A program made the translations under genes and the position numbers. DNA of 64,000 bases from Verrucomicrobiales bacterium (GTDB lineage: Bacteria; Verrucomicrobiota; Verrucomicrobiia; Verrucomicrobiales; DEV007), in NCBI GenBank assembly GCA_029213195.1, contig JARGNI010000002.1, positions 124,001 to 188,000 on the forward strand, given 5' to 3'. This document shows, piece by piece, positions 2,631 through 20,698 of the stretch; position 1 is the stretch's first letter; each line of letters begins with the position of its first letter. Below the pieces are notes generated by a model. That model made no database searches, had not been told where the DNA came from, and saw only the letters and a list, made by a program, of their open reading frames with translations.

Positions 2631-3752
2631 ATGTGGCAAAGATTCAAAACGTTCCCCTTTCTCTCCGCGGTGATCCTGCTGGCTCTGAATATCCGCATGG
2701 TGACCAGTGGATTGACCGGCGTGGGAATCGCCGCTTTTGGCATCACTCTGTTCTGGTTTGGTTTCGAGTTCATCCGTTGGCTGATTCTTCCACCTGCCCC
2801 GGGAGAAGATCCGGAGAACCCCTCCGTATCCGACAGTGCCCCCGAAGAGACAATCACCTCGCTCGTCTACTTCCTCGCCGAGCCTCGAACCGCTGACGAG
2901 CAGATGATCCGCGAGTTGGTCTCCTCGGCTCTGGGGCGCGAATTTTCCACCGACGATTCCGAGCCGGAGAACTTCGTGATTCAGTTTCGAAATCCCGAAT
3001 CGTCCCGTCTCGAAGAGGACGCCATCGTCCGGTTCCTTGTACGAATTCCGGAAGGAAACTTTGCCATCCTGCTTTCCGACTCTCCCTACATCGAAAACCC
3101 CGAGGAATTTGCAGAGCAGTCCATCCGCGACAAACGTCTCCGGAATGCCATCGAAGCTCATCGTGCCTGGCTATCGGTCGACTGGATGGATGACCCTCCG
3201 CCTCCTGAACAGAGTAAGAAAGTCTACGGAATCATCGGGAAAATTCTCTGCGCTTTTGCAGGTCCCGACTGCCTCGCGATCTACTCACCGGAACTTCATC
3301 GCTGCAACGAGTTTGATTTGTCTCTTCTCGAAACGCTTGGGAGTGGCCAACCCCTCGAACTATTCGAGGAACCCACGTTCGAACCCATCATCGAAATTTC
3401 TGACAGCAACCCAAAGATGGCCGCAGCCGTCGCCAAGGCAAAGAAGCGATGGCCCGAATTCACGGATCGGTTTTCCAGGGCCTCGAAAGAAGACCGCGAA
3501 AAATTCATCGTCAAGGCAGAGTTCCGGGAAGGAACTGCCTGCGAGTATATGTGGGTCGCCGTGACCAGGATCGAGCCGGACACGGTGGAGGGCATTCTCA
3601 TGAATGACCCCCACGAACTGCTCGACGTCCACCGGGGCGCCGAGGTCCGCTTCGGAATGGATCGCCTCAACGACTGGATCTACTCAGACGACGACGGCCT
3701 GCATGTCGGCGGATTCACTCTCGATGTCCTTGCCGAGGGAGACGAGGACTAG
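2631..3752 (+). CDS. DUF2314 domain membrane protein
   Basis: The 373-residue product has two hydrophobic helices near its N-terminus (about residues 6-25 and 30-50), then a long cytoplasmic or periplasmic part. The last about 90 residues carry the DUF2314 pattern: EYMWVAVTRIEPDTVEGIL, then NDPHELLDVHRGAEVRF and DWIY. The function of this family is unknown. I chose ATG 2631 because the first membrane segment begins just after it; the frame is open further upstream, but that part overlaps the preceding gene's 3' end and reads as non-coding. A hairpin directly follows the stop. Confidence 0.8.
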   Translation: MWQRFKTFPFLSAVILLALNIRMVTSGLTGVGIAAFGITLFWFGFEFIRWLILPPAPGEDPENPSVSDSAPEETITSLVYFLAEPRTADEQMIRELVSSALGREFSTDDSEPENFVIQFRNPESSRLEEDAIVRFLVRIPEGNFAILLSDSPYIENPEEFAEQSIRDKRLRNAIEAHRAWLSVDWMDDPPPPEQSKKVYGIIGKILCAFAGPDCLAIYSPELHRCNEFDLSLLETLGSGQPLELFEEPTFEPIIEISDSNPKMAAAVAKAKKRWPEFTDRFSRASKEDREKFIVKAEFREGTACEYMWVAVTRIEPDTVEGILMNDPHELLDVHRGAEVRFGMDRLNDWIYSDDDGLHVGGFTLDVLAEGDED

Positions 3753-3777
3753 GGGCGAGATAATCTCGTCTCGCCCC
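3752..3777. terminator. Hairpin between convergent genes
   Basis: A perfect 9-bp inverted repeat (GGGGCGAGA / TCTCGCCCC, 8-base loop) begins on the last base of the DUF2314 stop codon and lies just before the convergent oxidoreductase stop. There is no strong T-run on either side, so it may act as a weak bidirectional terminator or an mRNA 3' end protector. Confidence 0.5.
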
Positions 3778-3791
3778 CTCTCTCGCATGGC

Positions 3792-5159
3792 TCAAAGGCT
3801 CCAGCCGTCCCGGTAATTGTGGAAGACCAGGGCATCGGCGTCGGCATTCCCCGTGGTCATCTTTTCCGCATCCCAGGTCAACTCGGTTCCAGGTCCAAGC
3901 AGTGATCCGATCACGCCCAGCAACAGGGTTTCGGTCAGGGGAACGGCGACATCGAAGTTTGATTTTGCCAGCGAGGGGTCGTTCTTCTGAATCGCGTCGA
4001 TCCACTCCTGGTAGTGCCCGGGAGAACGCTCCTCCGTTTTCTCAGGAGCCTTGTGCGCCGAGTGATTCGCATCGATCACGGTAGGAGCACCGCCATGGCT
4101 TCCGTGCATGATCGTGTGCTCGCTCCCCAGGTAGACGCACCCGTTATCGGGCACCTTTTTATCACCGCGCATCCCGGCAGGGGTGGGAATCTTGTATTTA
4201 CCGTCCAGCCACTGCAACTTCACAGGCCCATGATTTTCAGTGGCGGCAAATTCATAATTGATGATGCAGGAAGAGGGATGCGAGTCTTTCTCCGCACCCG
4301 GAGTCGACCGATCCGCCTTTTCTACGCTTACCTTGGTAGGGAGTCCCAGACCCAGAGCCCACATCGGATGATCGATGATGTGAGCGCCCATATCTCCGAG
4401 AGCACCAGTGCCGTAGTCAAGAAATCCTCGCCATTTGAAAGGAGCAATCTTGCTGCTGAAAGGCTTCTCGGGCGCCGGTCCCAACCAGAGGTCCCAGTCG
4501 AGGGTTTCGGGAACGCCCTCCGCTGCGGGACGGACCAGATCCTGGGGCCAGATTGGACGGTTTGTCCGACAGTAGACCTGCTCGACCTCCCCGATCGAAC
4601 CAGATTGAATGAACTCATTGGTTCGGCGAGCTCCCTCGGCCGCGTGACCCGTGTTTCCCATCTGAGTGCACACCCCTTTTTCTTTGGCTGCGGCATGAAG
4701 AGCCCGCGCTTCTGAGATTGTCAGCGTCAGGGGCTTCTCTACATAGACATGCTTACCCATCTGGATCGCAGCCATCGCAGAAACGGCGTGCAGGTGATCG
4801 GGAGTCGAGATGACGACGGCGTCGATGGCATCCCCCTCCACTTCCAACATCTCCCGCCAATCCGTGTAGCGCTTGGCGTTCGGATACTTCTTGTAGGAGC
4901 CTCCGGCACGAGCCTGATCCACATCGCAGAGTGCATAGACGTTGTGACCGGTCTTGGCACAGCCTTGAATATTGGCATTTGCGCGACCTCCTGCTCCGAT
5001 GAAGGCGATATTGAGCTTTCCTCCCGCACTCTTCGACTCCCCCTGGGCAGCCAGGTAGCCACTGAGAAGGTTGGTCGAGGCGGCTGCACCTGCGGTGACT
5101 CCAAGAAATTTTCGACGGTCGGTTCGGGGAAAACTGGGGTTTTGCTCTGATCTAGTCAT
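3792..5159 (-). CDS. Tat-exported Gfo/Idh/MocA family oxidoreductase
   Basis: A 455-residue NAD(P)-dependent oxidoreductase-like protein, probably acting on a sugar or cyclitol in the periplasm. The N-terminus has a twin-arginine signal (TDRRKFLGVTAGAAAS). The Rossmann motif IAFIGAGGRANANIQG follows near residues 48-63, then VISTPDHLHA and the family hallmark EKPL (HVYVEKPLT). The C-terminal domain includes GDMGAHIIDHPMWAL. I chose ATG 5159 because it places the RR motif at the usual distance; longer upstream starts add unrelated sequence. The length and the glycine-rich insert match the planctomycete/verrucomicrobial exported subgroup. The substrate is unknown. Confidence 0.9.
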   Translation of the reverse strand: MTRSEQNPSFPRTDRRKFLGVTAGAAASTNLLSGYLAAQGESKSAGGKLNIAFIGAGGRANANIQGCAKTGHNVYALCDVDQARAGGSYKKYPNAKRYTDWREMLEVEGDAIDAVVISTPDHLHAVSAMAAIQMGKHVYVEKPLTLTISEARALHAAAKEKGVCTQMGNTGHAAEGARRTNEFIQSGSIGEVEQVYCRTNRPIWPQDLVRPAAEGVPETLDWDLWLGPAPEKPFSSKIAPFKWRGFLDYGTGALGDMGAHIIDHPMWALGLGLPTKVSVEKADRSTPGAEKDSHPSSCIINYEFAATENHGPVKLQWLDGKYKIPTPAGMRGDKKVPDNGCVYLGSEHTIMHGSHGGAPTVIDANHSAHKAPEKTEERSPGHYQEWIDAIQKNDPSLAKSNFDVAVPLTETLLLGVIGSLLGPGTELTWDAEKMTTGNADADALVFHNYRDGWSL

Positions 5160-6355: not shown

Positions 6356-8554
6356 TCAATAAATCCGCGTCGACCAGCTGGCAACCGGCTGACGAATGAG
6401 GCGCAAACTCATCAGCGAACGGGCATCATTTTCAGCCATTCCTCGAATGCTTTGATTGTCGAAGGCAAAAGTAGGGCTATGGCTGACCCACCGATTCGAA
6501 GGAGGAAACGGCTTGGGATCGGAATCATTCGCGGTCGCAACCGTGATCTCAACCTTGATGCCGAGGACCGACTCGATATTCTCCAAGCTCCATGGGTGAC
6601 GATGCAAATAGCTTCTCGGAATCCGAACCTCGAGAAGCCTGCTCCCGTCTTCGGCCGTTCGTAAGACGGAAGCAATCCCACGGGGATCGAGAATCATATC
6701 GTATCCGGCACCGAATGATCCCAGGAGAATTTCAGGCGTAACGCCCGGTCCATCCTTGGCCTTGGCAAAGACCCGTATGGGCTCGATCGCACCAAAGCTC
6801 ATCACTTCTTCGGAGGGCCTCGCGTCGAGAAAGATCTTGGCTTCGAGCGCGGGACGCTCCCCGAGATCAGGAAGCCTCACTCCCTGGATCGCGGCCACCA
6901 TGTAAAGCGCGTTTTCATCCGCTTCAAACCGAACAGCAACGCGCTCGGTCTCTCGTGCAGCCGCACGCCGTTCCCCGGCCGGGAGAGCGTTTGCATACCG
7001 AGTCCACTTTCGAAGCTCACGGGGTTCTCCGAGCACCAGGTCACGGGTTGCCTCCATCTCACGGCTGAATCTTGTTACCACCCCTCCCACATCTACCTGG
7101 ATCCAGATGTCTCGCTGGAACTGATCAAGATCGGCTTCCGGAACGAAGTCAAAAAGAGAAAACACGGTCTTCGTTCCGAGAGGTGAAGCCGAAAAATTGG
7201 TGGGCTGCCCGACCTTGTCTCCATAGCCAACCTGGAAGGTCCCCGAAACGGGCTTATCCGTTCCATTGACAAGGTCCCACTCCACCCGGATGCGATCGTC
7301 CACATTGAGGAATTGCCGGGACTTCCAAACCGCAGTAATGGGGCCGATTCGTAAAGGAAGATCGACCAACTCTGAGCGGAAAGAGTCTTCGACAAAGAAA
7401 CTGAAACGACTGAACTCATCGGAAGGCTCGAGGGGATACAGGATATCACTTCCGTCACGAGCCTGACCTACAACCGGTCTCCGATACCGAAACGAAAGTT
7501 GCGCCGTCCCACCTGGAGCGATCGAGAATCGCTTCGCAGCCTCGACAGGAATCAATCCCCCACCGACCGCTAGGGCACCGATCGTGCCTTCCTGTGGATC
7601 CTCCGTTTGATTCCGAATCGCGAGGACGACTCCCACAGTTCCAGAGGAGTCGAACTGGGCAATACCCGCGTAGGAGAAGGGAGAACTGCCTGGCCCATCC
7701 TTGAGCGTATTGAAGAGGGCTTCCCCGAGGTAGTCGTTTGCTCGCTCCCCAGGATGGACACGCTCAGCAGGGATCCCCGGACCAAAACGGAAGATCTGGC
7801 TCAATCGATCGCTCAACACCGCAATGACCGCTCCCGGTTCCGTGTCGGCATTGACGCCGCCTCCAAACTTGGCGAGAAGCTTCCCGCAATCAAGATAGAG
7901 GACGTTCTCACTCCGTGCGACCTCTCTCGCCACAGTGGCGTAGGGCCGGGTAACGCCCCACCCCACTTCACCCGCTCCATATTTGACGAGACTGGGAGAA
8001 AAAAGGATCACATCGGCATTCTCTTCCTTGGCGCGAGCTACGATGCCGAGCAGCGCTTTCCGATACGTATCGACCGAGATCCTCCCGAAAGCATCGTAGA
8101 TTCCATACTGAACCAAGACCAAGTCCGGATTGTGAACAAACGCATCCGTAGTCGCATGACGAAGGCCCGTCAGGGAAGTCGCATCGAGGTGGCTGAAATT
8201 CTCGAGGGTGATCTCATCCCCAAGATATGGAGAAATCTTCGCCTTTCCGCCCGAGGGCGGGTTCAGGAGTCTCACTCCCCCTGGATAGAAGAATTCCTTG
8301 GCGATCTGCGAAAGAAAGACCCCAGTGAAACCATACAGCGGATTGTTGGGTTCCCAGGCTTTCGGATCCGGAGTATAGCCCCCCGTCACACTGTCGCCTA
8401 ATTGGATGACATGAACGGGATCGCGAGCTTCCAGTTTCGGAAACGTACGCGGAAGGAACTGATGGAAACGCTCCCGCTGCTCCAGTGTGAATGGAAAAGA
8501 GAAGACCGGTGCGACGAAGAAAATCGCACAAAAAAGAACGCCGACAAATTTCAT
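6356..8554 (-). CDS. Secreted SGNH/GDSL hydrolase with C-terminal beta-rich domain
   Basis: A 732-residue exported hydrolase. It opens with a signal peptide (MKFVGVLFCAIFFVAPVFS). The catalytic SGNH module occupies about residues 30-280: VIQLGDSVTGGY carries the nucleophile Ser, LVQYGIYD is the block III equivalent, and RVHPGERANDYLGEAL carries the terminal His. A long beta-sandwich region follows, and the last about 200 residues resemble a CBM9/DOMON-like carbohydrate-binding module (IESVLGIKVEITVATANDSD, SHSPTFAFDNQSI). It may de-esterify a polysaccharide outside the cytoplasm. ATG 8554 was chosen because the signal peptide begins there. It is separated from the PKS-NRPS by a terminator, so a link to that enzyme is not implied. 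Confidence 0.82.
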   Translation of the reverse strand: MKFVGVLFCAIFFVAPVFSFPFTLEQRERFHQFLPRTFPKLEARDPVHVIQLGDSVTGGYTPDPKAWEPNNPLYGFTGVFLSQIAKEFFYPGGVRLLNPPSGGKAKISPYLGDEITLENFSHLDATSLTGLRHATTDAFVHNPDLVLVQYGIYDAFGRISVDTYRKALLGIVARAKEENADVILFSPSLVKYGAGEVGWGVTRPYATVAREVARSENVLYLDCGKLLAKFGGGVNADTEPGAVIAVLSDRLSQIFRFGPGIPAERVHPGERANDYLGEALFNTLKDGPGSSPFSYAGIAQFDSSGTVGVVLAIRNQTEDPQEGTIGALAVGGGLIPVEAAKRFSIAPGGTAQLSFRYRRPVVGQARDGSDILYPLEPSDEFSRFSFFVEDSFRSELVDLPLRIGPITAVWKSRQFLNVDDRIRVEWDLVNGTDKPVSGTFQVGYGDKVGQPTNFSASPLGTKTVFSLFDFVPEADLDQFQRDIWIQVDVGGVVTRFSREMEATRDLVLGEPRELRKWTRYANALPAGERRAAARETERVAVRFEADENALYMVAAIQGVRLPDLGERPALEAKIFLDARPSEEVMSFGAIEPIRVFAKAKDGPGVTPEILLGSFGAGYDMILDPRGIASVLRTAEDGSRLLEVRIPRSYLHRHPWSLENIESVLGIKVEITVATANDSDPKPFPPSNRWVSHSPTFAFDNQSIRGMAENDARSLMSLRLIRQPVASWSTRIY

Positions 8555-8614
8555 ACAATCGTGATCGCCGCTCCCTAGACGAACGCCAACCGTCAATCCT
8601 TAGGAGAGCTTACC

Positions 8615-8665: not shown

Positions 8666-11600
8666 TCACGACGTTGTCGAGCTACCGCGCTGTTTTTCTC
8701 GAAATTCCTGGATTCCTTCTTCGGGAAGGAAGAATCCAGTCATTTGCAGCTTAGCCGGTGAAGCTCCCATCTCTTCCAGGAACTCGTAATGTGCGAGGGC
8801 ATCGTCGTTCTCCAACTCACCCAGTGTCGGAGCCACGTCCTCACTGAGCCCCGTAAGGAGACTGACGAGCACACAGCCCGTAATTTCGTTCTTGTCCCGA
8901 CTCTGGAGAAACTTCAGGAAACCGAACTGAACGGAATCGTCGACCTCTTCCATCTCTTCTGGCAGATAGATCGTCTCCGCGACGACATCAGACATTCGGA
9001 GTTCTCCGCCAGTGGTGAAAAGAATGTCTCTTTCCTGGGTGAAACGCTTGATCGCTTCATCAACACGGAACACAGGTGGGAAACTGTAATCCACCACCAG
9101 GGTTCCCGGCTTCAGAGAATCCATATCCAGCACTCCAGGAAGATTGGTCGAGGCAATGACCAGGGAAGCATCATAGACCTCCGGAGGAAGCGCCCCGCCG
9201 TTCTTGACGATGTCGATCTGGCCCTGGAATCCGGCATCGCGAACGCGATCCCGAATTCGGCTCATCTGGTCATCCGTTTGATACGGATCGCAAAGAATCA
9301 GATGCTTTGGATGGTCGAGAACATCGAGCATGAGACGGAGGGTGCCGAATCCAATCGAACCCAGCCCGACAACCGAGATCGTCTCGCCCGGAATTTCCCT
9401 CTTTGCCTCGGCCAGAATCCCCTCCACCGACTTCACGATGGTCGCAGAACGCGTCGCATCACCTGTCGTGATTTCAGGGAGATTCTCCCGATCTTCCATC
9501 CACTCTTCGATATCCCGTCCATGACGAGTCGTGGAAGGAATCACGCCGGTCAGAGAAACGGTCTTCGCCCCTGCCTTCCCGGCCATCTCCAGCGCTGCCA
9601 GTGTGGTCGCTTTCGTGGAAGCTGGGTCCGTGTAGAAGTCAGCTTCGAAACAAGGCAACATGATGACCCCGATCTTGCCCTGCTCCAGGGTATAGGTATT
9701 GCTCAAGAGAGGCTTGCCGCCAAAGAGTCGCTCCGAAATCTCATCACGGGTCATGCCTGACATGCTCGCAAGGACCTCCGGGATGTATGTCAGAGCCACG
9801 GCATCCAGATCAGGCAGATCGTCGGAAGCCATCTCCACGTCGATGTGCTCCAAGTCCTCGATATCGAGATCAGCCAAGGCTGGACTCTCATCGGTAGTGG
9901 TCTTCACCGGCTTTGTATCACTGGAGAGGTAGCCTGCCAGTTGCTCGATCGTTGGATTCGTCAGGAAGGCATCGACAGCCACGTCTCTCTTGAACGATTC
10001 CGAAACGTCCACAACGATTCGCAAAGCCATCAGGGAGTCTCCCCCCATCTCGAAGAAATTGTCGGTCACGCCAATGTCTTCCGAGTCGAAGTTCCGGCTG
10101 AAAATTTCCCAGAGCTGCTTCTCGACTTCCGAGCGAGGCTGAACTCTCTCGCCGACGCTGGCAGCTCCGATCTTCGGCATCGGCAGTTGCTTGCGATCAA
10201 TCTTCTTGTTCGGAGTCAAAGGGAACTCCGGTAGGACCGCAAAATAGGCCGGGATGTAGCTGGCCGGAAGCTTGCGGGAAAGCTGACTCCGAATCTGGGA
10301 AGCTTCGAGAGCAGGACCTTCGGCAATATAATAACCGACAAGCCCCTCCCCACTCGGGAGATCCTCTCGCTTCGTCACGACGGCTTGCTTGATGCCATCG
10401 ATGGCTTCCATCTGGGTCTCGATATCCCCGAGTTCCATCCGAACGCCTCGGACTTTGACTTGGAAATCGACACGACCGAGACACTCAAGTTTGCCTTCCC
10501 GATTCCAACGGGCGAGGTCACCAGTGCGATAAATCCGCTGGGTTCCGACCTCGGGAAGCTCGACTTCCTGGAAGGCAGCCGAGGTCAACTCAGGCTGATT
10601 TCGGTAGCCGCGAGCCAGTCCATCACCACCGATCCATAGTTCTCCCGTAAAGCCCTGGGGAACAGGTTTGTGATTCGTATCGAGGATGTAGACCTGCGTG
10701 TTGGCAATCGGGGTTCCGATGGAAATCGCGGCATCGCTCTCTTCGATCTTTTCAACTGAAGACCAAACCGTCGTCTCCGTAGGACCATAGAGGTTCCACA
10801 GTTCATCGGCAGAATGGACCAGAGTATTCGCGAGAGTGCGATTGAGCGCCTCTCCACCACAGAAAATGCGGAGACCACTGTTTCCTTCCCAACCGCTGTC
10901 GAGAAGCATCTGCCAGGTCGCAGGGGTCGCCTGCATCACGGTGATGTCCTCCTCGGTGATCAGGTTGGCGAGGCGTCGTCCATCCTTCACATCATCCGCA
11001 TCGGCAATCACTACCGTAGCACCAGCCAGTAGAGGCAGGAACATCTCAAGAAGAGAAATATCGAAAGACAGGGTCGTAACGGCAAGGAGGCGATCCTTGC
11101 TGGTCAGTCCGGGAGTCTTCTCCATCGAGCGCAAGAAATTTACGGCTGCGCGGTGAGGAATCTCGACCCCTTTCGGTTTTCCAGTCGAACCCGAGGTGTA
11201 GATGATGTAGGCAAGAGAATCTGATGCCAATCCAGACGGTGTCGGAGCTTTCGAAGTGCCTTCGATCTCATCGAGATCGAGAACTTTCCAATCTCCTTCC
11301 GGGAGAGAACCGAGGAGACGGGACGAGGCGACCAGCGCCTTCGGTGCCGCATCTGCGAGCATCATCTCCAACCGCTCTTCCGGAAACTCCGGATCCAGCG
11401 GGATGTAGGTCGCACCGGCCTTGAGTGCGCCAAGGAGCGCGGTGATCATCTTGGGAGAACGATCGGCCAACACTCCGACATTGTCGCCCGGCTTCACACC
11501 GGCCTCGATCAGGTCGCGTGCCACTCCGTTTGCCTGGCGATTGAGAGACCCGTAGGTCATGTGCGTCTCTCCAAAAATCACGGCAGTGTCTTCATCGCGA

Positions 11601-14600
11601 TCTGCGACGACAGCCTCGACCAACTCGTGAAGCAATCCATCGGTCTCGTAGTCCGAAGCGGTGTCGTTGAAGTCGACGAGAACCTCTTTTTCCTCTTCGC
11701 TTCCGAGGAGATTCAGCTCCGAAAGTCGTGTATCGGGACTGGAGGTAATTTCCTTGAGGACTTGCTCGTAGAGTCCGCTGAGTTCCTGAATGGTGGCTTC
11801 GTCGAACAGATCGCTGTTGTACTGCCAGCATCCAAAGAGCTGTCCTCCGGCTTCCTCGAGCACGAGGGTAATCTCAAACTGCGACTGTCTCGTCGTCAGG
11901 TCGATGGTCTCCATGGAGAGGTCCCCCACATGGAAGGTATGCCCCCCCTGTCCGATCAGGAAAACGGCGATTCCCGCCTCGTCAATTCCCGGCACCTTCT
12001 CCATCGAGAAGCTCACCTGGAACAGCGGCGAACGCCCTGGATCCCGAGGCACCTTGAGACGATCGACCATGCGAGCAAGAGGATACTGCTGGTTCTCCAG
12101 CGCTCCGTTCACTTGCAGGCTGTTGTTCGAAAGAAACTCGGAAACAGTGGGATCGCCCTCGACTGTGCTGCGAACGGGGACCGGGTTGATGTAGTATCCG
12201 ACCGTGCTTCGCAGCTCCGGCTGCGTTCTGCCCGCGAGCGGAACCCCCACCACGATATCGTCCTGCTGACAATAACGGTGCATGAGAATGTCGTAGGCGG
12301 AAAGCAGGGTCGTGAAGAGCGTCACGTTGTTGGCCTTCGCCAACTCATCGACCGCCGTGGTCAGTTCTTCGCCATACTGAAATCCATGGGTTCCCCCATT
12401 GAAGGTCTGAATCGCAGGACGCGGACGATCCGTCGGCAGATCGATCACGCTGGGAGCACCGGCCAGATGCTCTTTCCAGAAATCGAACATCTGTTCGCCC
12501 GCCTCGCTCTCTAGGTGCGCACTTTCCCACTTCACGAAATCCGCATAGCTGGCCTCGACAGGCTCGACCTGAGGAGTCCGACCGCCTTTAGCTGCAAAGT
12601 AGTATTCAATGAGGTCCTGAATCACGACCGACACCGACCATGCATCGGAAACGATATGATGCATCGTGAGCAGCGCGACGTGAGCGTCGTCTGCCGTCAG
12701 GAAGAGTTCCAAGCGCACCACCGGTCCCCGTTCCAAGTTGAAGGGGCGAGCGGCGTGCTCACTGATCATCTTCTTCAGTTCCTCGTCATCGAGATTGGTG
12801 CAGTCATGCTCTCGAAAATCGACGGTGCGTCCTTTGTGAACAACCTGCATCGGCTCTCCGTCCTTCGTCGTGAAGGTCACGTCGATCAGAGGATGGCGCT
12901 CGAAAAGCAGGGAGAAGGCGGTCTTCATCGCCTCGATGTCCAGCTTGGGACGGAACTTGCCTGAAAAGTTCAGGTTGTAAGCGGAAGAGTCCGGAGCCAA
13001 ACGGTTGAGGAACCAGAGAGCTTTCTGCCCCTCGGAAAGAGGAAAGACATCGGGCATATCCCCGGTCGCCTCGAACTCGACGAGACTGCCTGCATCGATC
13101 CCGCCCCCTTCGCTGGAGGCACCTCCACCATTCTCGAGAAGCTTCTCGAGGACGGGTTCGGAGAGGTCCCGAATATTGGGTCCATTAAGAACCGATCCCA
13201 TTGGCATGGTCATGCCCAGCTTCTCCTCGATCCGGTTGACCAGCTCGATCGCCATCAGCGAATCCAGTCCCAGGTTGGTCAGCGGGGTATCCTTGTCGAG
13301 GCGTGCCGCATCGGTTCCAAGAACCGCTCCGACCTGTGTTGCAATCAAGTCCTCAACCATCCCCATCCGCTTCTCCGCAGGGGCTTCGAGAATCCGAGCC
13401 GCCATGGAGTCTCCTCCTCCGGAACTGGAGCGAGGAACGACGGGGAGGAACATGTTCGACCCGCCCACGGAAGGACTGAATCGTCCAAGCGCCTGCCAGT
13501 CACAGCGGGCAGCTCCAAGCTGGTAGGCATCCGAGGGCACCCCGAGACTGAAGAGATAGAGGGTCTCCTCCATGTTGGTGGCACCCAATCCAACCATCTC
13601 CAGGTATTGCTGCGTCTTCTCGTTCCGCGCGACAAAACCGGCTCCCTCGAGAGCTCCCCAGTTGAAGGTGAGCGAAGGAAGTCCCAGCGAACGGCGATAA
13701 TGCGACAACTGATCGAGAAAGACATTACCCGCGTTGTAATTCGACTGCTTCACTGCGCCAATCACCGCAGAGAAGGAAGAGAAATTGATGAAATGCTCGA
13801 GCGGAATATCGAGCGTAGCCTCGTGAAGATTCCAGGCTCCCAGCATTTTCGGCAGGAGAACCCGATCGAAGCGCTCTGCATCGAGTTCATTGAGAAACTC
13901 GTCATCGAGAACCATCGCCCCGTGAATCACTCCAATCAGCGGGGCATCACTTTCCTGAATGTCCGCCACGATCCGATCGATATCGGCACGGCTCGTGACA
14001 TCTCCCCGAGCATCCATGATGGAGACTCCGGAAGCCTTGAGCTTCTCGATTTTTTCCTGCGCGTCCTCCTTGGGACCGGAACGGCTCATCAGCGCAAAAT
14101 GACGCGCTCCATTCTGGGTCATCCATTCCGCCAATTCTAGTCCGAAACCTCCGGCTCCGCCTGTAATCAAGTAGGTGCCGTCTCCGCGGAAACGGTGACC
14201 TTCCTCGGTAGGTTGCCCGATCTCAATCTCCGGAACATCGAAGTCGAGAACATTCTTTCCGATGTGCTTTCCGGCCGCCATGAAGCGGAAGGCTTCGACC
14301 ACCTCTGTGATCGGGAAAACTTCGTTCGGCAGCGGCACATAGGACTGATCGTAAAAGAGGGCTTCCAGATCCGAGAACATCCGCGCGACATACGAGGGCT
14401 TGCTCTGCAGGTGCTGAGCAAGGTCGATGACAAAGAAGCTGATATTGTTCCGCAGGGGCTCGAGACCAATTTTGGAATTGCCATAGACATCGACTTTCCC
14501 GATCTCCATGTATCTTCCAAAGGTCTTGAGGACACTGAAATTCTTGGGAATGAAATCCCCGGCAAGAGAGTTCAGGACCGCATCGACCCCTTCCCCATCG

Positions 14601-17600
14601 GTAATTCGCATGATCTCGTCCGCGAACTCCAGGGTTCGGGAGTCAAGCACGTGGTCGACTCCCATATCTTCAAGTAGCTTGCGCTTCTCAGGAGTCCCGG
14701 CAGTGGAAAAGATCTCGAGTCCAAGGTGCTTGGCAATCTGGATCGCCGCTTGGCCGACACCACCAGTTCCTGCATGAATGAGAATGCTCTCGCCTTTCTC
14801 CATGCGAGCCAGCTCGTTGATCGCGTAGTGCGAGGTCAGGAAAACGGTAGGCAGAGTCGCCGCCTCGACGTGAGTCATCGTATCCGGCTTCCGGAAGACC
14901 ATGTCCCGATGCACCGTCACAAAGCTACGGAAGCAATAGGGCGCCATTCCGACAACGTTGTCTCCGACACTGAGATCTTTCACATTCTTGCCGACCTTGA
15001 CGACAGTTCCCGAGAAATCATCTCCGAACCACTTGAGGTCGACCGGGTTGCCCGGATAAATTCCGAGAGCCTTCATGACATCCCGGAAGTTGATTCCGCC
15101 GGCCTTGATCTGAATCTCGATCTCGTCCTCTTCTGGATCGCGACGCACCGTCTCGTTGAGAGAAAGGTTGGTGAGAATCCCTGGCTTGTCGATTTGAAGT
15201 CGGTAGGGCAGCACGGAACCGTCCTCTTGGACCGCATTCCGGGTTCTCGGTGGCAGGTCCTCGGCTTTGACACGATGAACCCGTCGCGCATAGCGGCTGT
15301 TACCGCGAAACGCGATCTCGTGCTCACGATCCGAATGGAGAATCTCTGCAATCAGATCTTCGAGTTCGAATTCATTCTCGTTCGGATCGAGATCAATCTG
15401 GCCCCAGCAGTATTCCGCCGCCTCGTTGTTGGCGACGCGAAGAAGACCGGTGATGGGTGCCGAAGCAAGCCCCGGAAGCATCTCTCCGCGAATGACCGGC
15501 ATCGTTCCTCGAGTCAGGAAGGTCACATCTGGTTTGGACGTCCACTCCCGACCCGTCAGGTGCTGAAACAACTCGTGGGCAAATCGAACTCCCGAATCCT
15601 GCGCCTTGTTGAGCACCTCGAGATTCAATGCATCCGCTCTCGGATGATCGAGAGGAAGCGTAACGACGATTTTCTTGATCGTACGCTCCTCCTCACCGGC
15701 TTTTGAAATGGCTGTATCGATCGCTTCGACGCTGCCTTCCACCAGCAACGGCTCGAAAACATCACTACCCAACGAGGTAACGAGCTCCCTTCCGAGACCG
15801 GACTTGTCTTCCGTAACCAGGACCAGCGGAAGCGCGATCGCCTCCTCGGCTCCACTTTCTTCCTCCTGAGCCCCCTCGACGTCGTCCTCGACCGATGGCT
15901 CGACGGGCTCCGGTGCTCGACCGATGAGACAGGCCTGCTGGTTTTGCTTCGGATCTTCCGAACTGATGAAACTGTCTACTCCCCGGTAGCCGAGATCGCT
16001 CAGGAATGCCTCCCACTCTTCACGAGAGAGAAGGGCGGAATCCTTCCGTAGATCCGTGTCCTTGAAACGCCACCAACCTGGGAGAAGTCCAAAAACATTG
16101 TCGAGAGCCGCTCGACGCCAGGTCACCTCGAGGAACATGAGGACCCCATCAGGAGCGAGCGCTCGCTGGAGATTTCGAAACGTCGCCTTCAGATCCTCGG
16201 TCGCATGAATGACATTGGAAGCCAGGATGATATCAAAGTGGTGCGGATCGAATCCCTGAGATTCCGGATCTTTCTCACAGTCGAACATCTTGTATTCGAC
16301 AAAGGGAAATTCCTCCCCAAATCGGTCTTCCGCAGCCTGCAGGAAAAGCGGGCCGTTGTCGGTGAACACATACTCTGTCCGGTCCGAAGGGAAGACGCTG
16401 AGGATGTTGCTGGTGAGTGAGCCCGTTCCGGCCCCCACTTCGAGGACGCGGATGGCCCGTCGCTCAGGCAGATCGGCTACCGCCTTGACGAGAGCATCCC
16501 GAATCTGGTCATTGATCACGGGAAAGTCAGCACCCTCGCGGTAGAAACGCTCCATGATGCGTGAAGAGCCGCCTGGGAAGAGAACTTCCAGGGGATCGGT
16601 TTCTCCACTGAGAACGCCCGCTAGATTGGGGCCTGAAAGTCGCTGGAGTTCCGCTTCGGAAGCGAAGTCGGGCATATCCTCAGCGAGCTTGTCGAGGTAG
16701 GGCAAGGCGTCTTCGTCGCCCGGCACTTCGATGACCTTCCATTCGTCTTCACTCGACGGCTTGAGGAATCCCCCTTCTTCGAGAGATTTGAACTGTCCCC
16801 GAATGAGCTTGGTATGCTGGTCCGCAATCGCGAGATCCCTCATCAGCCCCTCGATCGTCAGGGTGTCGCCCTCGCTGGGATTCCATCCCAATTCGAAGTA
16901 GGCGTTGATGATGAACTGGCGCGAGATTTCATCCAAGGCAGGAAGGAACTTGCCGTAATGATTGGCCAGTCCTCGCTTCTCGTAGTACTCCGGCAGCTTC
17001 TCGTTGGCGGCAGAAACCAGCTCCTTCGGATCTGGCAGTTTCGCATCACCGTCTTCCCGAGTGCCTTTGAGACGAGCAATCTCCCACTTCGCCTGGTAGA
17101 GACATTTCTCGAGATCGTCGTTGTTGCTCTGCTCGATGCGATCCGCGCGGAACCCATAGATCTCGGCCACAAGTTCCCCGGCATCGTCATAGACGTCGAT
17201 GTCAGCAATGATGTATTCGCGATCGTTGTCTGAGTTCACCTTGGCATGGCCCCAGAGGCGCAGCGGAGGACGCTCCACATGCAGACGAATGCTTCGAATC
17301 GCCGCCGGCAGATAGAAATAGTCCTCGGCATTCGCTCCATCGGGAATGACCTGGCCACCTTTTACGGTGTGGAAACACGCATCGAGAACGGCGGGATGGA
17401 AATGATGATCCGGGATCGTGTCATAGAGCCCTTCCGGTGCGACAATCTCCGCGAGACACTCTCCGTCTTTTCTCCAGACATTCTGCAAGTGCTGGAAAAG
17501 AGGACGGAATTGATACCCAGCCTCTTCGTAATCCTCGTAGTATTCGTCGTGATCGAAATGACGCGGCAGCTCCGCCTTCACCTTTTCGAAATCGAGCGTC

Positions 17601-20600
17601 GGTTTGTGCGGCGCGGGCTGCTTTCGAAGTACGCCCTGGGAGTTCAAATCCCACTCACCCTTGTCCCCGGTCGAAGAGAACACCTGGAAGATGCGGGTGT
17701 CGGGATCGAATACGACCTCGACGGTGGGCACCTTCTCCTCGGAAACGAAGAGTGCTTTCTTCATCTCGAGGTCTTCGACGACATAATTTTCGTCAGGGAA
17801 GAGCTTGCGTGCGATCGCAATCCCGATCTCGCCATAGCCAGCCGCCGGAAAGACGACGCTGTCCCAGAAACGGTGATCGTCGAGCCAAGTGAAATAGCGG
17901 GGATCAAGTTCGAAACGCCAGGTCGGATGCGGCGCAGTCTGCTTGAGCCCAAGCAAGGGATGCTCGAGGGGAGCGCACCGGAGGTATTCCCCCTCCTTGG
18001 ACTCCAACCAGAAGATTTCCTTCTGCCAGGCGTAGGTAGGCAGGCGAACTCCTTTGGGCGAAGCCTGGTTCACAGATTCCCAATCGAGTTCGTAGCCGTG
18101 ATTGTGCAGGCGAGCCAGGTTCGAAAGCATCTCGACGGACTCGTCCGTCTTCCGCTTGAGACTGGAGAAATAGAATCCTTTCCGACTTTGATCGGAGAGA
18201 CACTCCATGATGGGATTCTGAAGAGCCGGGTGAGGTCCCAGCTCGAGGAAAGAATCCTCTCCCGAGCGAATCAGGTTTTGAATCGCGGGAGCAAACAAGA
18301 CCGCTTCCCGAACGTTGTTCCACCAGTATTCGGCGTCGATCTTGGCCCCCTCGTAGACACCTCCAGTCACCGTCGAGATGTAAGGAATCGTCGTTGCACG
18401 CGGCTTGATGTCCTTGAGGACCTCGAGAAGCTCGTCCTTGATCGGCTCCATCTGGTGCGTGTGAAAAGCGTAGTCGATGCGAAGCCAGCGGACGAATTTG
18501 CCCTGCTCTTCCAAATCGGCGACCACCTCCTCGAGAGGCTCGGTATCCCCTGCCAGGGTAAGAAGACCGGGACTGTTGACCACGGCGACCTCGACCTGGT
18601 CCTCTTTTCCTGCGATCGCCTTCCTGGCTTCGGCTTGCGAAAGGCCGACCGCCACCATGCGACCGTTTCCACCGGTTTGGTCCTGAAGTCGAGAACGATG
18701 ATAAATCACCGTGACGGCGTCTTCCATCGTGTAGGCGCCAGCCACGTAAGCCGCAGCCACTTCTCCGACCGAGTGCCCGACAACCTTGGACGGCACGATG
18801 CCCCACGATTTCCACAATTCTGCGAGAGCAACCTGGAGTCCGAAAATTGCGGGTTGGGCGATGTTCGTCCGATTGATCTGCGAACTCTCCTCGTCCTTGG
18901 TCATCTCGTCGATAAGCGACCATCCTGCGAGAGGTTTGAGATGGGTATCGATCTCCTCGAGTACGGCGCGAAAGACGGGCTCCCGCTCGAGAAGGTGTTG
19001 ACCCATCGCCCACCACTGGGCTCCCTGTCCGGTAAAGACGAAAACAAGAGGGTGAGTTTCTCCCGACGGTTTGCCCGAGATCGCAGCCTCACTGTCTCCC
19101 GTGGCGAGCCACTCCGTCATCTCATGGATGAAGTCGTTCTTGGTCTGAGCCACGAACGCGAGTCGATTGTCGTGATGCTCGCGCTTCAGGCCGGCCGCGG
19201 CTCCGATCGCTGCGATGTCTGCAGTGGAACCGCGAAGGAAACGCTTCCAGCGCTTGACGGTGTCACGAAGCGCATCGTCACCTCGAGCTGACAAAGGCAG
19301 GAGGACGGGACGTACCGCTTTCTCCTCCGTGGCACTTCCACTGAGAGTGACGCTGTCCTGAGAGGACGGCTTTGCCGCCTCTTGCGCCGGCGCGGCCTCG
19401 AGGACGATGTGGGAATTGGTTCCCCCAAAACCGAAGCTGTTGACCCCGACCACGGGAAGCTTTCCATCGAGATGAGGCAGCGGTTGCAACTCGGTGCAGA
19501 CCTTGAATTTGAACTCATCGAACGGAATGTTCGGGTTCGGGTTCTTGAAATTCAGGTTCGCCGGAACCTGGTCATGATGAAGGACCAGGGCAGCCTTGGC
19601 GAGTCCGGCAACTCCGGATCCCGATTCGAGGTGGCCGACATTGGTCTTCACCGATCCAAGCAGGCAATAGTCATCCTCATCACGGCCCTGCGAGAGGACT
19701 TGCCCAAGGGCACGAGTCTCAATCGGATCTCCGACCGGAGTGCCCGTTCCATGAGCCTCCATGTAGCGAACCGCCTTTGGCTCCAAACCAGCCTGATCGT
19801 AGGCGATTCGAAGCATTTCGGCCTGGGTCTCCACACCGGGAACGGTCATCGAGGAGGTGTTTCCATCCTGGTTGATGACCGCTGCCTTGATCGTGCAATA
19901 CACCCGATCGCCATCCGCCTGAGCTTGGCTCAGCGGCTTGATCACGAACATTCCGGCGCCCTCGCCTCGCACGTAACCGTTGGCACGATCATCGAAAGCG
20001 AAACACTGACCCGTCGGCGACAGCATCGTCGCCTTGGAGAATCCGATGGAAGCGTCCGGAGTAAGCAGGGCATTACACCCCCCAGCCAACGCCATGTCCG
20101 CCATTCCGGACCAAACCGATTCACAGGCGAGATTGATTGCGACGAGAGCCGACGAACAAGCCGTGTCAACGGAGACCGCGGGTCCCTTGAAATCGAGCAG
20201 GTAAGAGATCCGGTTGGAAGCAATCGAGAGCGTCGAACCGGAATTCGTGTGCACGTCGACATTCCGAGGATCGCTCTGGGCGACGTTGGCGTAGTCGTTC
20301 GAGGCGATACCGACGTAGACGGCTGTGTTTGATCCACGGAGCTTGTCCGGAGCCATTCCCGCATCTTCGAGAGACTCCCAGGCCGTTTCCAGCATCCAGC
20401 GCTGCTGGGGATCCATCCGCAGCGCCTCTCGGGGTGAAATCCCGAAGAACTGGGCATCGAACCGGTCGAAGTCGTGAATGAATCCACCCCACTTCGTGAT
20501 CATCTTTCCCGGGATGTCGACATTGTCGTGATGCCAACGCTCTCGATTCCAGCGATTGGAGGGAACAGGGACGATCCCGGATCGCTCCTCCACCATCATT

Positions 20601-20698
20601 TGCCAGAAAGATTCGGGCCCCGTGACACCGCCGGGGAGGCGGCATCCAATCCCTACAATAGCCAGGGGCTCACGCGTCGCTGATTGGTTCTCAGACAT
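8666..20698 (-). CDS. Iterative-type hybrid PKS-NRPS megasynthase with terminal acyl-ACP-reductase-like domain
   Basis: A 4010-residue cytoplasmic assembly line. Domains by motif: KS about 10-435 (DTACSSA, Cys181; EAHGTGT near 317); AT 550-850 (GHSVGE, Ser643; AFH near 741, the malonyl-type signature); DH 910-1215 (HxxxDxxxxP near 940; HPAVLDACFH near 1103); C-methyltransferase about 1330-1600 (VLEVGAGTGSLT); KR structural part 1640-1830; ER 1836-2155 (HAGTGGVGQ); KR 2170-2420 (YLITGGAGGFG, YNAGN); ACP (GLDSL, Ser2480); C 2549-3000 (HHIVSDAW); A 3022-3505 (YTSGSTGKPKG, YGPTE); PCP (GGDSL, Ser3555). Residues about 3640-4010 resemble cyanobacterial acyl-ACP reductase. Known chemistry suggests a methylated, reduced polyketide joined to one amino acid, probably glycine, and released by reduction. 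There is no loading module or TE. It is the only biosynthetic gene recognised here. Confidence 0.95.
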   Translation of the reverse strand: MSENQSATREPLAIVGIGCRLPGGVTGPESFWQMMVEERSGIVPVPSNRWNRERWHHDNVDIPGKMITKWGGFIHDFDRFDAQFFGISPREALRMDPQQRWMLETAWESLEDAGMAPDKLRGSNTAVYVGIASNDYANVAQSDPRNVDVHTNSGSTLSIASNRISYLLDFKGPAVSVDTACSSALVAINLACESVWSGMADMALAGGCNALLTPDASIGFSKATMLSPTGQCFAFDDRANGYVRGEGAGMFVIKPLSQAQADGDRVYCTIKAAVINQDGNTSSMTVPGVETQAEMLRIAYDQAGLEPKAVRYMEAHGTGTPVGDPIETRALGQVLSQGRDEDDYCLLGSVKTNVGHLESGSGVAGLAKAALVLHHDQVPANLNFKNPNPNIPFDEFKFKVCTELQPLPHLDGKLPVVGVNSFGFGGTNSHIVLEAAPAQEAAKPSSQDSVTLSGSATEEKAVRPVLLPLSARGDDALRDTVKRWKRFLRGSTADIAAIGAAAGLKREHHDNRLAFVAQTKNDFIHEMTEWLATGDSEAAISGKPSGETHPLVFVFTGQGAQWWAMGQHLLEREPVFRAVLEEIDTHLKPLAGWSLIDEMTKDEESSQINRTNIAQPAIFGLQVALAELWKSWGIVPSKVVGHSVGEVAAAYVAGAYTMEDAVTVIYHRSRLQDQTGGNGRMVAVGLSQAEARKAIAGKEDQVEVAVVNSPGLLTLAGDTEPLEEVVADLEEQGKFVRWLRIDYAFHTHQMEPIKDELLEVLKDIKPRATTIPYISTVTGGVYEGAKIDAEYWWNNVREAVLFAPAIQNLIRSGEDSFLELGPHPALQNPIMECLSDQSRKGFYFSSLKRKTDESVEMLSNLARLHNHGYELDWESVNQASPKGVRLPTYAWQKEIFWLESKEGEYLRCAPLEHPLLGLKQTAPHPTWRFELDPRYFTWLDDHRFWDSVVFPAAGYGEIGIAIARKLFPDENYVVEDLEMKKALFVSEEKVPTVEVVFDPDTRIFQVFSSTGDKGEWDLNSQGVLRKQPAPHKPTLDFEKVKAELPRHFDHDEYYEDYEEAGYQFRPLFQHLQNVWRKDGECLAEIVAPEGLYDTIPDHHFHPAVLDACFHTVKGGQVIPDGANAEDYFYLPAAIRSIRLHVERPPLRLWGHAKVNSDNDREYIIADIDVYDDAGELVAEIYGFRADRIEQSNNDDLEKCLYQAKWEIARLKGTREDGDAKLPDPKELVSAANEKLPEYYEKRGLANHYGKFLPALDEISRQFIINAYFELGWNPSEGDTLTIEGLMRDLAIADQHTKLIRGQFKSLEEGGFLKPSSEDEWKVIEVPGDEDALPYLDKLAEDMPDFASEAELQRLSGPNLAGVLSGETDPLEVLFPGGSSRIMERFYREGADFPVINDQIRDALVKAVADLPERRAIRVLEVGAGTGSLTSNILSVFPSDRTEYVFTDNGPLFLQAAEDRFGEEFPFVEYKMFDCEKDPESQGFDPHHFDIILASNVIHATEDLKATFRNLQRALAPDGVLMFLEVTWRRAALDNVFGLLPGWWRFKDTDLRKDSALLSREEWEAFLSDLGYRGVDSFISSEDPKQNQQACLIGRAPEPVEPSVEDDVEGAQEEESGAEEAIALPLVLVTEDKSGLGRELVTSLGSDVFEPLLVEGSVEAIDTAISKAGEEERTIKKIVVTLPLDHPRADALNLEVLNKAQDSGVRFAHELFQHLTGREWTSKPDVTFLTRGTMPVIRGEMLPGLASAPITGLLRVANNEAAEYCWGQIDLDPNENEFELEDLIAEILHSDREHEIAFRGNSRYARRVHRVKAEDLPPRTRNAVQEDGSVLPYRLQIDKPGILTNLSLNETVRRDPEEDEIEIQIKAGGINFRDVMKALGIYPGNPVDLKWFGDDFSGTVVKVGKNVKDLSVGDNVVGMAPYCFRSFVTVHRDMVFRKPDTMTHVEAATLPTVFLTSHYAINELARMEKGESILIHAGTGGVGQAAIQIAKHLGLEIFSTAGTPEKRKLLEDMGVDHVLDSRTLEFADEIMRITDGEGVDAVLNSLAGDFIPKNFSVLKTFGRYMEIGKVDVYGNSKIGLEPLRNNISFFVIDLAQHLQSKPSYVARMFSDLEALFYDQSYVPLPNEVFPITEVVEAFRFMAAGKHIGKNVLDFDVPEIEIGQPTEEGHRFRGDGTYLITGGAGGFGLELAEWMTQNGARHFALMSRSGPKEDAQEKIEKLKASGVSIMDARGDVTSRADIDRIVADIQESDAPLIGVIHGAMVLDDEFLNELDAERFDRVLLPKMLGAWNLHEATLDIPLEHFINFSSFSAVIGAVKQSNYNAGNVFLDQLSHYRRSLGLPSLTFNWGALEGAGFVARNEKTQQYLEMVGLGATNMEETLYLFSLGVPSDAYQLGAARCDWQALGRFSPSVGGSNMFLPVVPRSSSGGGDSMAARILEAPAEKRMGMVEDLIATQVGAVLGTDAARLDKDTPLTNLGLDSLMAIELVNRIEEKLGMTMPMGSVLNGPNIRDLSEPVLEKLLENGGGASSEGGGIDAGSLVEFEATGDMPDVFPLSEGQKALWFLNRLAPDSSAYNLNFSGKFRPKLDIEAMKTAFSLLFERHPLIDVTFTTKDGEPMQVVHKGRTVDFREHDCTNLDDEELKKMISEHAARPFNLERGPVVRLELFLTADDAHVALLTMHHIVSDAWSVSVVIQDLIEYYFAAKGGRTPQVEPVEASYADFVKWESAHLESEAGEQMFDFWKEHLAGAPSVIDLPTDRPRPAIQTFNGGTHGFQYGEELTTAVDELAKANNVTLFTTLLSAYDILMHRYCQQDDIVVGVPLAGRTQPELRSTVGYYINPVPVRSTVEGDPTVSEFLSNNSLQVNGALENQQYPLARMVDRLKVPRDPGRSPLFQVSFSMEKVPGIDEAGIAVFLIGQGGHTFHVGDLSMETIDLTTRQSQFEITLVLEEAGGQLFGCWQYNSDLFDEATIQELSGLYEQVLKEITSSPDTRLSELNLLGSEEEKEVLVDFNDTASDYETDGLLHELVEAVVADRDEDTAVIFGETHMTYGSLNRQANGVARDLIEAGVKPGDNVGVLADRSPKMITALLGALKAGATYIPLDPEFPEERLEMMLADAAPKALVASSRLLGSLPEGDWKVLDLDEIEGTSKAPTPSGLASDSLAYIIYTSGSTGKPKGVEIPHRAAVNFLRSMEKTPGLTSKDRLLAVTTLSFDISLLEMFLPLLAGATVVIADADDVKDGRRLANLITEEDITVMQATPATWQMLLDSGWEGNSGLRIFCGGEALNRTLANTLVHSADELWNLYGPTETTVWSSVEKIEESDAAISIGTPIANTQVYILDTNHKPVPQGFTGELWIGGDGLARGYRNQPELTSAAFQEVELPEVGTQRIYRTGDLARWNREGKLECLGRVDFQVKVRGVRMELGDIETQMEAIDGIKQAVVTKREDLPSGEGLVGYYIAEGPALEASQIRSQLSRKLPASYIPAYFAVLPEFPLTPNKKIDRKQLPMPKIGAASVGERVQPRSEVEKQLWEIFSRNFDSEDIGVTDNFFEMGGDSLMALRIVVDVSESFKRDVAVDAFLTNPTIEQLAGYLSSDTKPVKTTTDESPALADLDIEDLEHIDVEMASDDLPDLDAVALTYIPEVLASMSGMTRDEISERLFGGKPLLSNTYTLEQGKIGVIMLPCFEADFYTDPASTKATTLAALEMAGKAGAKTVSLTGVIPSTTRHGRDIEEWMEDRENLPEITTGDATRSATIVKSVEGILAEAKREIPGETISVVGLGSIGFGTLRLMLDVLDHPKHLILCDPYQTDDQMSRIRDRVRDAGFQGQIDIVKNGGALPPEVYDASLVIASTNLPGVLDMDSLKPGTLVVDYSFPPVFRVDEAIKRFTQERDILFTTGGELRMSDVVAETIYLPEEMEEVDDSVQFGFLKFLQSRDKNEITGCVLVSLLTGLSEDVAPTLGELENDDALAHYEFLEEMGASPAKLQMTGFFLPEEGIQEFREKQRGSSTTS

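Follow-up and report, generated by a model that had tools for sequence, protein, structure and literature searches.

A TAD/AAR-type domain at the end of a predicted iterative-type PKS-NRPS in one genus of Verrucomicrobiota

The PKS-NRPS gene and its genomic setting

The window, that is, the whole stretch of 64,000 nucleotides that was analysed (contig JARGNI010000002.1 of a Verrucomicrobiales bacterium), carries on its minus strand a PKS-NRPS gene that is open over its full length on translation. The domain order of the 4010-residue protein from the Pfam scan is KS-AT-DH-MT-ER-KR-ACP-C-A-PCP (MT being a cMT), and the protein ends in a domain resembling acyl-ACP reductase (AAR) and the carmabin TAD. 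The features are as follows, in window coordinates.

8666-20698, minus strand: PKS-NRPS open reading frame, 4010 residues (Pfam scan, translation, and catalytic motifs)
13139-20698, minus strand: PKS part, highly reducing and of predicted iterative type, KS-AT-DH-MT-ER-KR-ACP (Pfam; similarity to PDB entries)
11684-13051, minus strand: condensation domain with the HHIVSDA motif, residues 2550-3005 (PF00668, E 1e-104)
10190-11671, minus strand: adenylation domain, predicted for glycine, code DILQFGLVWK (PF00501; code comparison)
10025-10057, minus strand: phosphopantetheine site of the PCP, FFEMGGDSLMA, residues 3548-3558 (PF00550)
8669-9856, minus strand: C-terminal TAD/AAR-type release domain, residues ~3615-4010 (phmmer, model superposition, and hhalign)
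9344-9367, minus strand: Rossmann dinucleotide loop GLGSIGFG, residues 3778-3785, corresponding to the GATGDIG loop of AAR (PMC7089970)
9281-9301, minus strand: LILCDPY, with the acidic residue that closes strand β2, pointing to NAD(H) over NADP(H) in the alignment
9068-9097, minus strand: VVDYSFPPVF, clade-specific motif of the active-site cleft, aligned with AAR residues 244-250 containing Y247
8873-8875, minus strand: Cys3942, predicted acyl-enzyme cysteine, equivalent to AAR Cys294 and carmabin TAD Cys2238 (alignments)

The catalytic motifs DTACSS, EAHGTGT, KTNVGH, GHSVGE, HHIVSDA, LGLDSL, and GGDSLMA were found, and the canonical motifs of the KS, AT, ACP, C, and PCP domains are kept. The closest solved structure to the PKS part is that of mycocerosic acid synthase (MAS), itself iterative, and this part is predicted to be iterative and MAS-like. 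The code of the A domain, which is constant or shows one conservative change across 15 genomes, is close to the glycine code DILQLGLIWK; on this basis the A domain is predicted to select glycine. A glycine-like code behind a MAS-like PKS leads us to expect an N-(fatty acyl)glycyl thioester on the PCP. Two candidate phosphopantetheinyl transferases are encoded in the same genome. Of the 31 Pfam families matched by this protein, the 25 that are listed include no aminotransferase, and the listed domains span its length.

The methyltransferase region of the PKS (window 15839-17086) has its best matches in the plasmid collection mostly among cyanobacterial PKSs, at 34-38% identity, which is in line with the cyanobacterial link of the TAD. 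Its matches in other Verrucomicrobiota lie mostly in frames of ~2,300-2,600 residues, and none is near 4,000 residues.

Within the genus, the megasynthase was matched in 30 of 34 genomes. Every one of the 24 with a completeness of 90% or more has it, and the four genomes with no match are 53-77% complete. The 12-kb gene lies at one syntenic position in all near-complete genomes of the genus (the window and loci L002-L022), as against the usual patchy spread. It adjoins mdh and, wherever this was looked at, a gene for a GDSL hydrolase; in four relatives outside the genus mdh is present and the PKS is not beside it. The megasynthase domain was not found in two other genera of the family or in the other families of the order that were sampled, and a search of 286 genomes of the class gave none except its own. 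When 388 genomes of the phylum were searched with the family profile, no full-length relative was obtained; the matches were Rossmann fragments of ~40-75 residues, mostly in frames of ~300 residues. The megasynthase thus appears to belong to the core genes of the genus and to have been acquired no later than the origin of the genus. Natural-product genes are seldom found at one locus in every near-complete genome, and this position suggests that the lipid has a core role.

The GDSL-hydrolase-like protein (746 residues, window 6356-8596) is encoded directly downstream of the PKS-NRPS gene on the same strand. It is kept beside the PKS-NRPS in many of the genomes examined, at 53-60% identity, and a functional link between the two is possible.

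Fold and active site of the terminal domain

The terminal domain runs from residue ~3615 to 4010, directly after the last PCP, and is followed by the stop codon; the linker between the PCP and this domain is poorly conserved. The first-pass annotation had correctly placed the segment at the C-terminus of the frame, and the residue 3640 given there as its start lies about 25 residues inside the domain, which starts at window ~9856. No Pfam family is above threshold, the sole weak match being a FolD fragment (E 0.14). No thioesterase, SDR-type reductase, or Dieckmann domain was found by Pfam, as had been stated from inspection of the sequence, and the domain searched alone gave no match to NAD_binding_4 or Epimerase at E values up to 10.

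In a phmmer search of the PDB, the best solved relative is the carmabin TAD (9e4x/9e50/9e56, 9e4s/9e4u; E 3e-68 over 357 residues), and AAR was not found with the single sequence. With the family profile, TAD (E 1.8e-109) is followed by PigE (E 9e-10) and AAR (E 1.5e-4). Comparison of profiles by hhalign joined the terminal domain to an AAR and PigE-like profile with 99.2% probability and an E value of 4e-19; the 267 aligned columns take in the catalytic Cys. The S. elongatus AAR query sequence was checked against the PDB, and the carmabin TAD sequence was taken from the HMMER alignment.

The domain was modelled with AlphaFold2 (pLDDT 77, pTM 0.80). The model superposes on the carmabin TAD with Z scores of 42.6-44.5, rmsd values of 2.4-3.1 Å over 373-383 residues, and 34-35% identity; the best superposition has a Z score of 44.5 and an rmsd of 2.4 Å (376 aligned residues). 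Against AAR, the Z scores were 25.2-25.5 (311-312 residues, spanning AAR 1-341). This means that the model aligns from residue 1 of AAR to its end, and therefore that the N-terminal substrate region is kept. The remaining structures, unrelated Rossmann enzymes included, gave Z scores of 13.9 or less, mostly over 130-160 residues. Foldseek ranks TAD, AAR, and the others in the same order (best E values of 1e-37, 1e-12, and 1e-7).

The resemblance to AAR along the length of the domain, which had been noticed by eye, is thus confirmed, and is remote by sequence. The kinship with AAR stands, and AAR as the best match does not: the closest characterised member of this AAR-fold family of release domains is the carmabin TAD. 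The structure search proposed in the first-pass annotation brought up no other Rossmann family as best match. An unrelated Rossmann dehydrogenase of the FolD or shikimate dehydrogenase type, suggested by nothing more than the sub-threshold FolD fragment in Pfam, or a degenerate, inactive appendix has a negligible chance of being right and is refuted by the fold scores (at most 13.9, as against 25 for AAR and 44 for TAD) together with strong purifying selection. The omega values of the terminal domain are 0.03-0.06 for the pairs that could be computed, comparable to those of KS, C, and A. The domain is an intact TAD/AAR-type release domain.

The TADs described so far, to our knowledge, belong to a few cyanobacterial pathways, and the chemistry put forward for them is a proposal. 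A structure paper reportedly appeared under the title 'Structure of a putative terminal amidation domain in natural product biosynthesis' (Structure, 2025). We take TAD to stand for terminal amidation domain, in line with PMC10949194. The carmabin TAD entries 9e4s, 9e4u, 9e4x, 9e50, and 9e56, released on 2025-02-26 as 'TAD from Carmabin Biosynthetic Pathway', include NAD, NADH, and a disulfide of Cys2238 with dephosphoCoA.

A scan of genome contigs matched relatives of the terminal domain in Verrucomicrobiota only, the plasmid collection gave three relatives, and the phage collection gave none. A Streptomyces fungicidicus plasmid (L025:4327-16101) encodes a 3925-residue FAAL-ACP-KS-AT-KR-ACP-C-A-PCP-C megasynthase ending in an AAR-type domain. 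A Pantoea stewartii plasmid (L024:14767-16053) has a stand-alone TAD-like gene between genes for a MupA/Atu3671 luciferase-like monooxygenase and an NRPS. The plasmid of Streptomyces NBC_00470 (L026:7839-9032) has a stand-alone, distant AAR-like gene, annotated as hypothetical, near ACP and KS genes. These cases indicate that assembly-line-linked AAR-type domains have spread beyond one pathway. The S. fungicidicus domain follows a condensation domain and not directly a PCP, and it keeps the Glu of CxxE. In a small maximum-likelihood tree (15 sequences; AAR and PigE-like proteins as outgroup; carmabin as the only cyanobacterial TAD), TAD and Pantoea are sisters (support 0.98), the Verrucomicrobiota domains lie beside them (support 0.99), and the two Streptomyces domains branch further away.

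Cys3942, which had gone unmentioned among the AAR features named in the first-pass annotation, aligns with AAR Cys294 in both hhalign and MAFFT. All 22 of the Verrucomicrobiota domains in the alignment have it, as do the relatives from Pantoea and Streptomyces. In the carmabin TAD, the title of entry 9e56 describes Cys2238 in a disulfide with dephosphocoenzyme A. An offset of 1886 is the sole numbering that fits the chain, so that Cys2238 must be the cysteine at chain index 352, which is aligned with Cys3942. Since the acyl group is bound to Cys294 in AAR (PMC7089970) and the disulfide in TAD mimics such a state, we infer that Cys3942 takes the acyl group.

The dinucleotide loop GLGSIGFG corresponds to GLGSVG in TAD. 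In one relative (L018, 9881-11110) the sequence GLDSIG replaces GLGSIG, with loss of one loop glycine; this may be an error in the sequence or may mean that the cofactor is no longer bound. The end of strand β2 reads LCDPY in the window, LCDVY in TAD, and TARNQ in AAR, where R189 and R193 bind the phosphate of NADPH (PMC7089970). In the window, CDPYQTDDQ stands in place of the region with R189 and R193, which speaks against NADPH, in an alignment that is remote and unreliable in the R314 region. Since an Asp ends the strand as in TAD, instead of TARNQ with Arg189/193, we predict NAD(H) as the cofactor rather than the NADPH assumed before.

Two further positions set the relatives apart. The Glu three residues after the Cys (CxxE) is present in AAR, four PigE-like proteins, and the two Streptomyces relatives, and is lost in TAD, Pantoea, and the Verrucomicrobiota clade. 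The carmabin TAD, Pantoea, and S. fungicidicus share DDSxPHC, a motif defined here from these three and not established as family-defining. The Verrucomicrobiota clade has DYSFPPV instead, invariant in 22 sequences in which DDSxPHC does not occur. DYSFPPV lies where AAR has Y247, a residue lining both the acyl tunnel and the NADPH site. Loss of DDSxPHC weakens the case for a function identical with that of TAD, and not the kinship.

The release reaction

It seems that the PKS part would build a reduced, probably methyl-branched fatty acyl chain, which the C-A-PCP module would join to glycine. The N-acylglycyl group might then move from the PCP to Cys3942, in a cleft that would also bind NAD(H), and the terminal domain might resolve the acyl-enzyme with ammonia to give an N-acyl-glycine primary amide. 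Our best explanation is that the domain is a TAD-like off-loading domain of an iterative-type PKS-NRPS, with this amide as the most likely product; we regard it as about evenly poised between right and wrong.

The amide is proposed because of the kinship with the carmabin TAD, and the loss of the CxxE Glu common to TAD, Pantoea, and the Verrucomicrobiota clade supports it. HcaD (hectoramide B) and VatR (vatiamide) have a domain of ~430 residues after the last PCP for which ammonolytic release was proposed, and the products of both synthetases, as well as carmabin A, end in a primary amide (PMC10949194). It should be mentioned that the amidation is a proposal, and that according to its authors neither mechanism nor enzymology had yet been investigated (PMC10949194). 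NAD is not required for simple ammonolysis, and the change from DDSxPHC to DYSFPPV means that the TAD reaction itself may not be conserved in this clade.

The principal alternative, possible but the less probable of the two, is a true reductase, in which hydride from NAD(P)H would reduce the Cys-bound N-acylglycyl thioester to an N-acyl-glycinal aldehyde. The AAR fold extends through the entire domain, which also keeps the catalytic Cys and the dinucleotide loop, and the activities known to have been demonstrated in the superfamily are reductions to aldehyde: AAR acts through acyl-Cys294 with NADPH (PMC7089970), and TamH, whose AAR-type domain takes a carrier-bound chain, is specific for NADH (PMC9594044), with which the likely NAD(H) site is compatible. 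However, the closest relatives are the TADs of amide-ending pathways and not AAR, and the Glu of CxxE, which AAR and the PigE-like proteins keep without exception, is replaced here. Furthermore, no aminotransferase, aldehyde dehydrogenase, or ADO was found among the neighbouring window genes scanned. Release as an aldehyde, which had been suggested from the AAR likeness, is thus not established and ranks second; the amide is favoured over it only modestly.

A separate AAR-fold clade with its own active-site motif (DYSFPPV, CxxE Glu lost), which performs neither AAR reduction nor the proposed TAD amidation on the fatty acyl-glycine, seems unlikely to us. If it is true, the product would be a house-keeping lipid of these Verrucomicrobiota and not an accessory metabolite. 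We likewise doubt a third type of reaction, such as four-electron reduction to the alcohol, hydrolysis, cyclisation, or transfer of the acyl-glycyl group to another nucleophile. DYSFPPV, which around the position of the cleft-lining Y247 is unlike both TAD and AAR, and the lost Glu could mark such a reaction; nothing else, however, points to a different substrate or nucleophile, and both differences could be neutral tuning.

For the preferred amide and its aldehyde alternative, about thirty natural variants are available in the genus, all of a simple enzyme with one fatty chain and one glycine, and the choice between amide and aldehyde is therefore directly testable.

Comparison with known systems

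The first-pass annotation correctly recognised a release domain of the AAR fold, fused behind a PCP: the active-site Cys, the dinucleotide motif, and the N-terminal region are all kept. The statement there that no described megasynthase has such an ending does not hold, since the carmabin TAD structures, HcaD, and VatR have it (PMC10949194). An AAR/TAD-type ending is thus already known from carmabin-type TADs. What is new is the fusion of an iterative MAS-like PKS to a glycine module and a TAD, conserved and syntenic across one genus of Verrucomicrobiota, with a terminal domain that is a taxonomically distinct and motif-divergent relative of TAD and AAR.

Compared with cyanobacterial AAR (TIGR04058; PDB 6jzq, 6jzu, 6jzy, 6jzz), the domain has the full-length fold, the equivalent of Cys294, the dinucleotide loop, and the N-terminal region, whereas the identity is ~17%, E297 is missing, the Arg pattern for the NADPH phosphate appears to be missing in the remote alignment, and the domain is fused to a megasynthase. 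The terminal domain scores below the curated TIGR04058 cut-off of 449.7 bits; this model gave no match in the genome itself at E values up to 0.001, and the best of 16 relatives reached 9e-4. The N-terminal domain of PigE and the C-terminal thioester reductase of TamH belong to the same superfamily, TamH also sharing a carrier-bound substrate and use of NADH; in contrast, both are fused to a class III aminotransferase, which is not among the Pfam families listed for the gene in the window, and CxxE is kept in the PigE-like proteins aligned. The SDR-type R domains of NRPSs (nostocyclopeptide NcpB type) likewise follow the terminal PCP and have an NAD(P)H-linked Rossmann fold, but they are of another fold family, the present domain having no Pfam match and an expected Cys acyl-enzyme.

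The nearest systems are the carmabin TAD, VatR, and HcaD, in which the domain stands C-terminal to the last PCP of an NRPS, as here. With the carmabin TAD in particular, the domain shares the fold, 34-35% identity, the active Cys, the NAD(H) cleft, and loss of the CxxE Glu; the difference lies in DYSFPPV in place of DDSxPHC. The three also differ from the present case in what surrounds the domain: here an iterative-type reducing PKS with one glycine module stands upstream instead of a cyanobacterial modular NRPS, and the gene belongs to the core of a genus in Verrucomicrobiota instead of to a patchy cluster.
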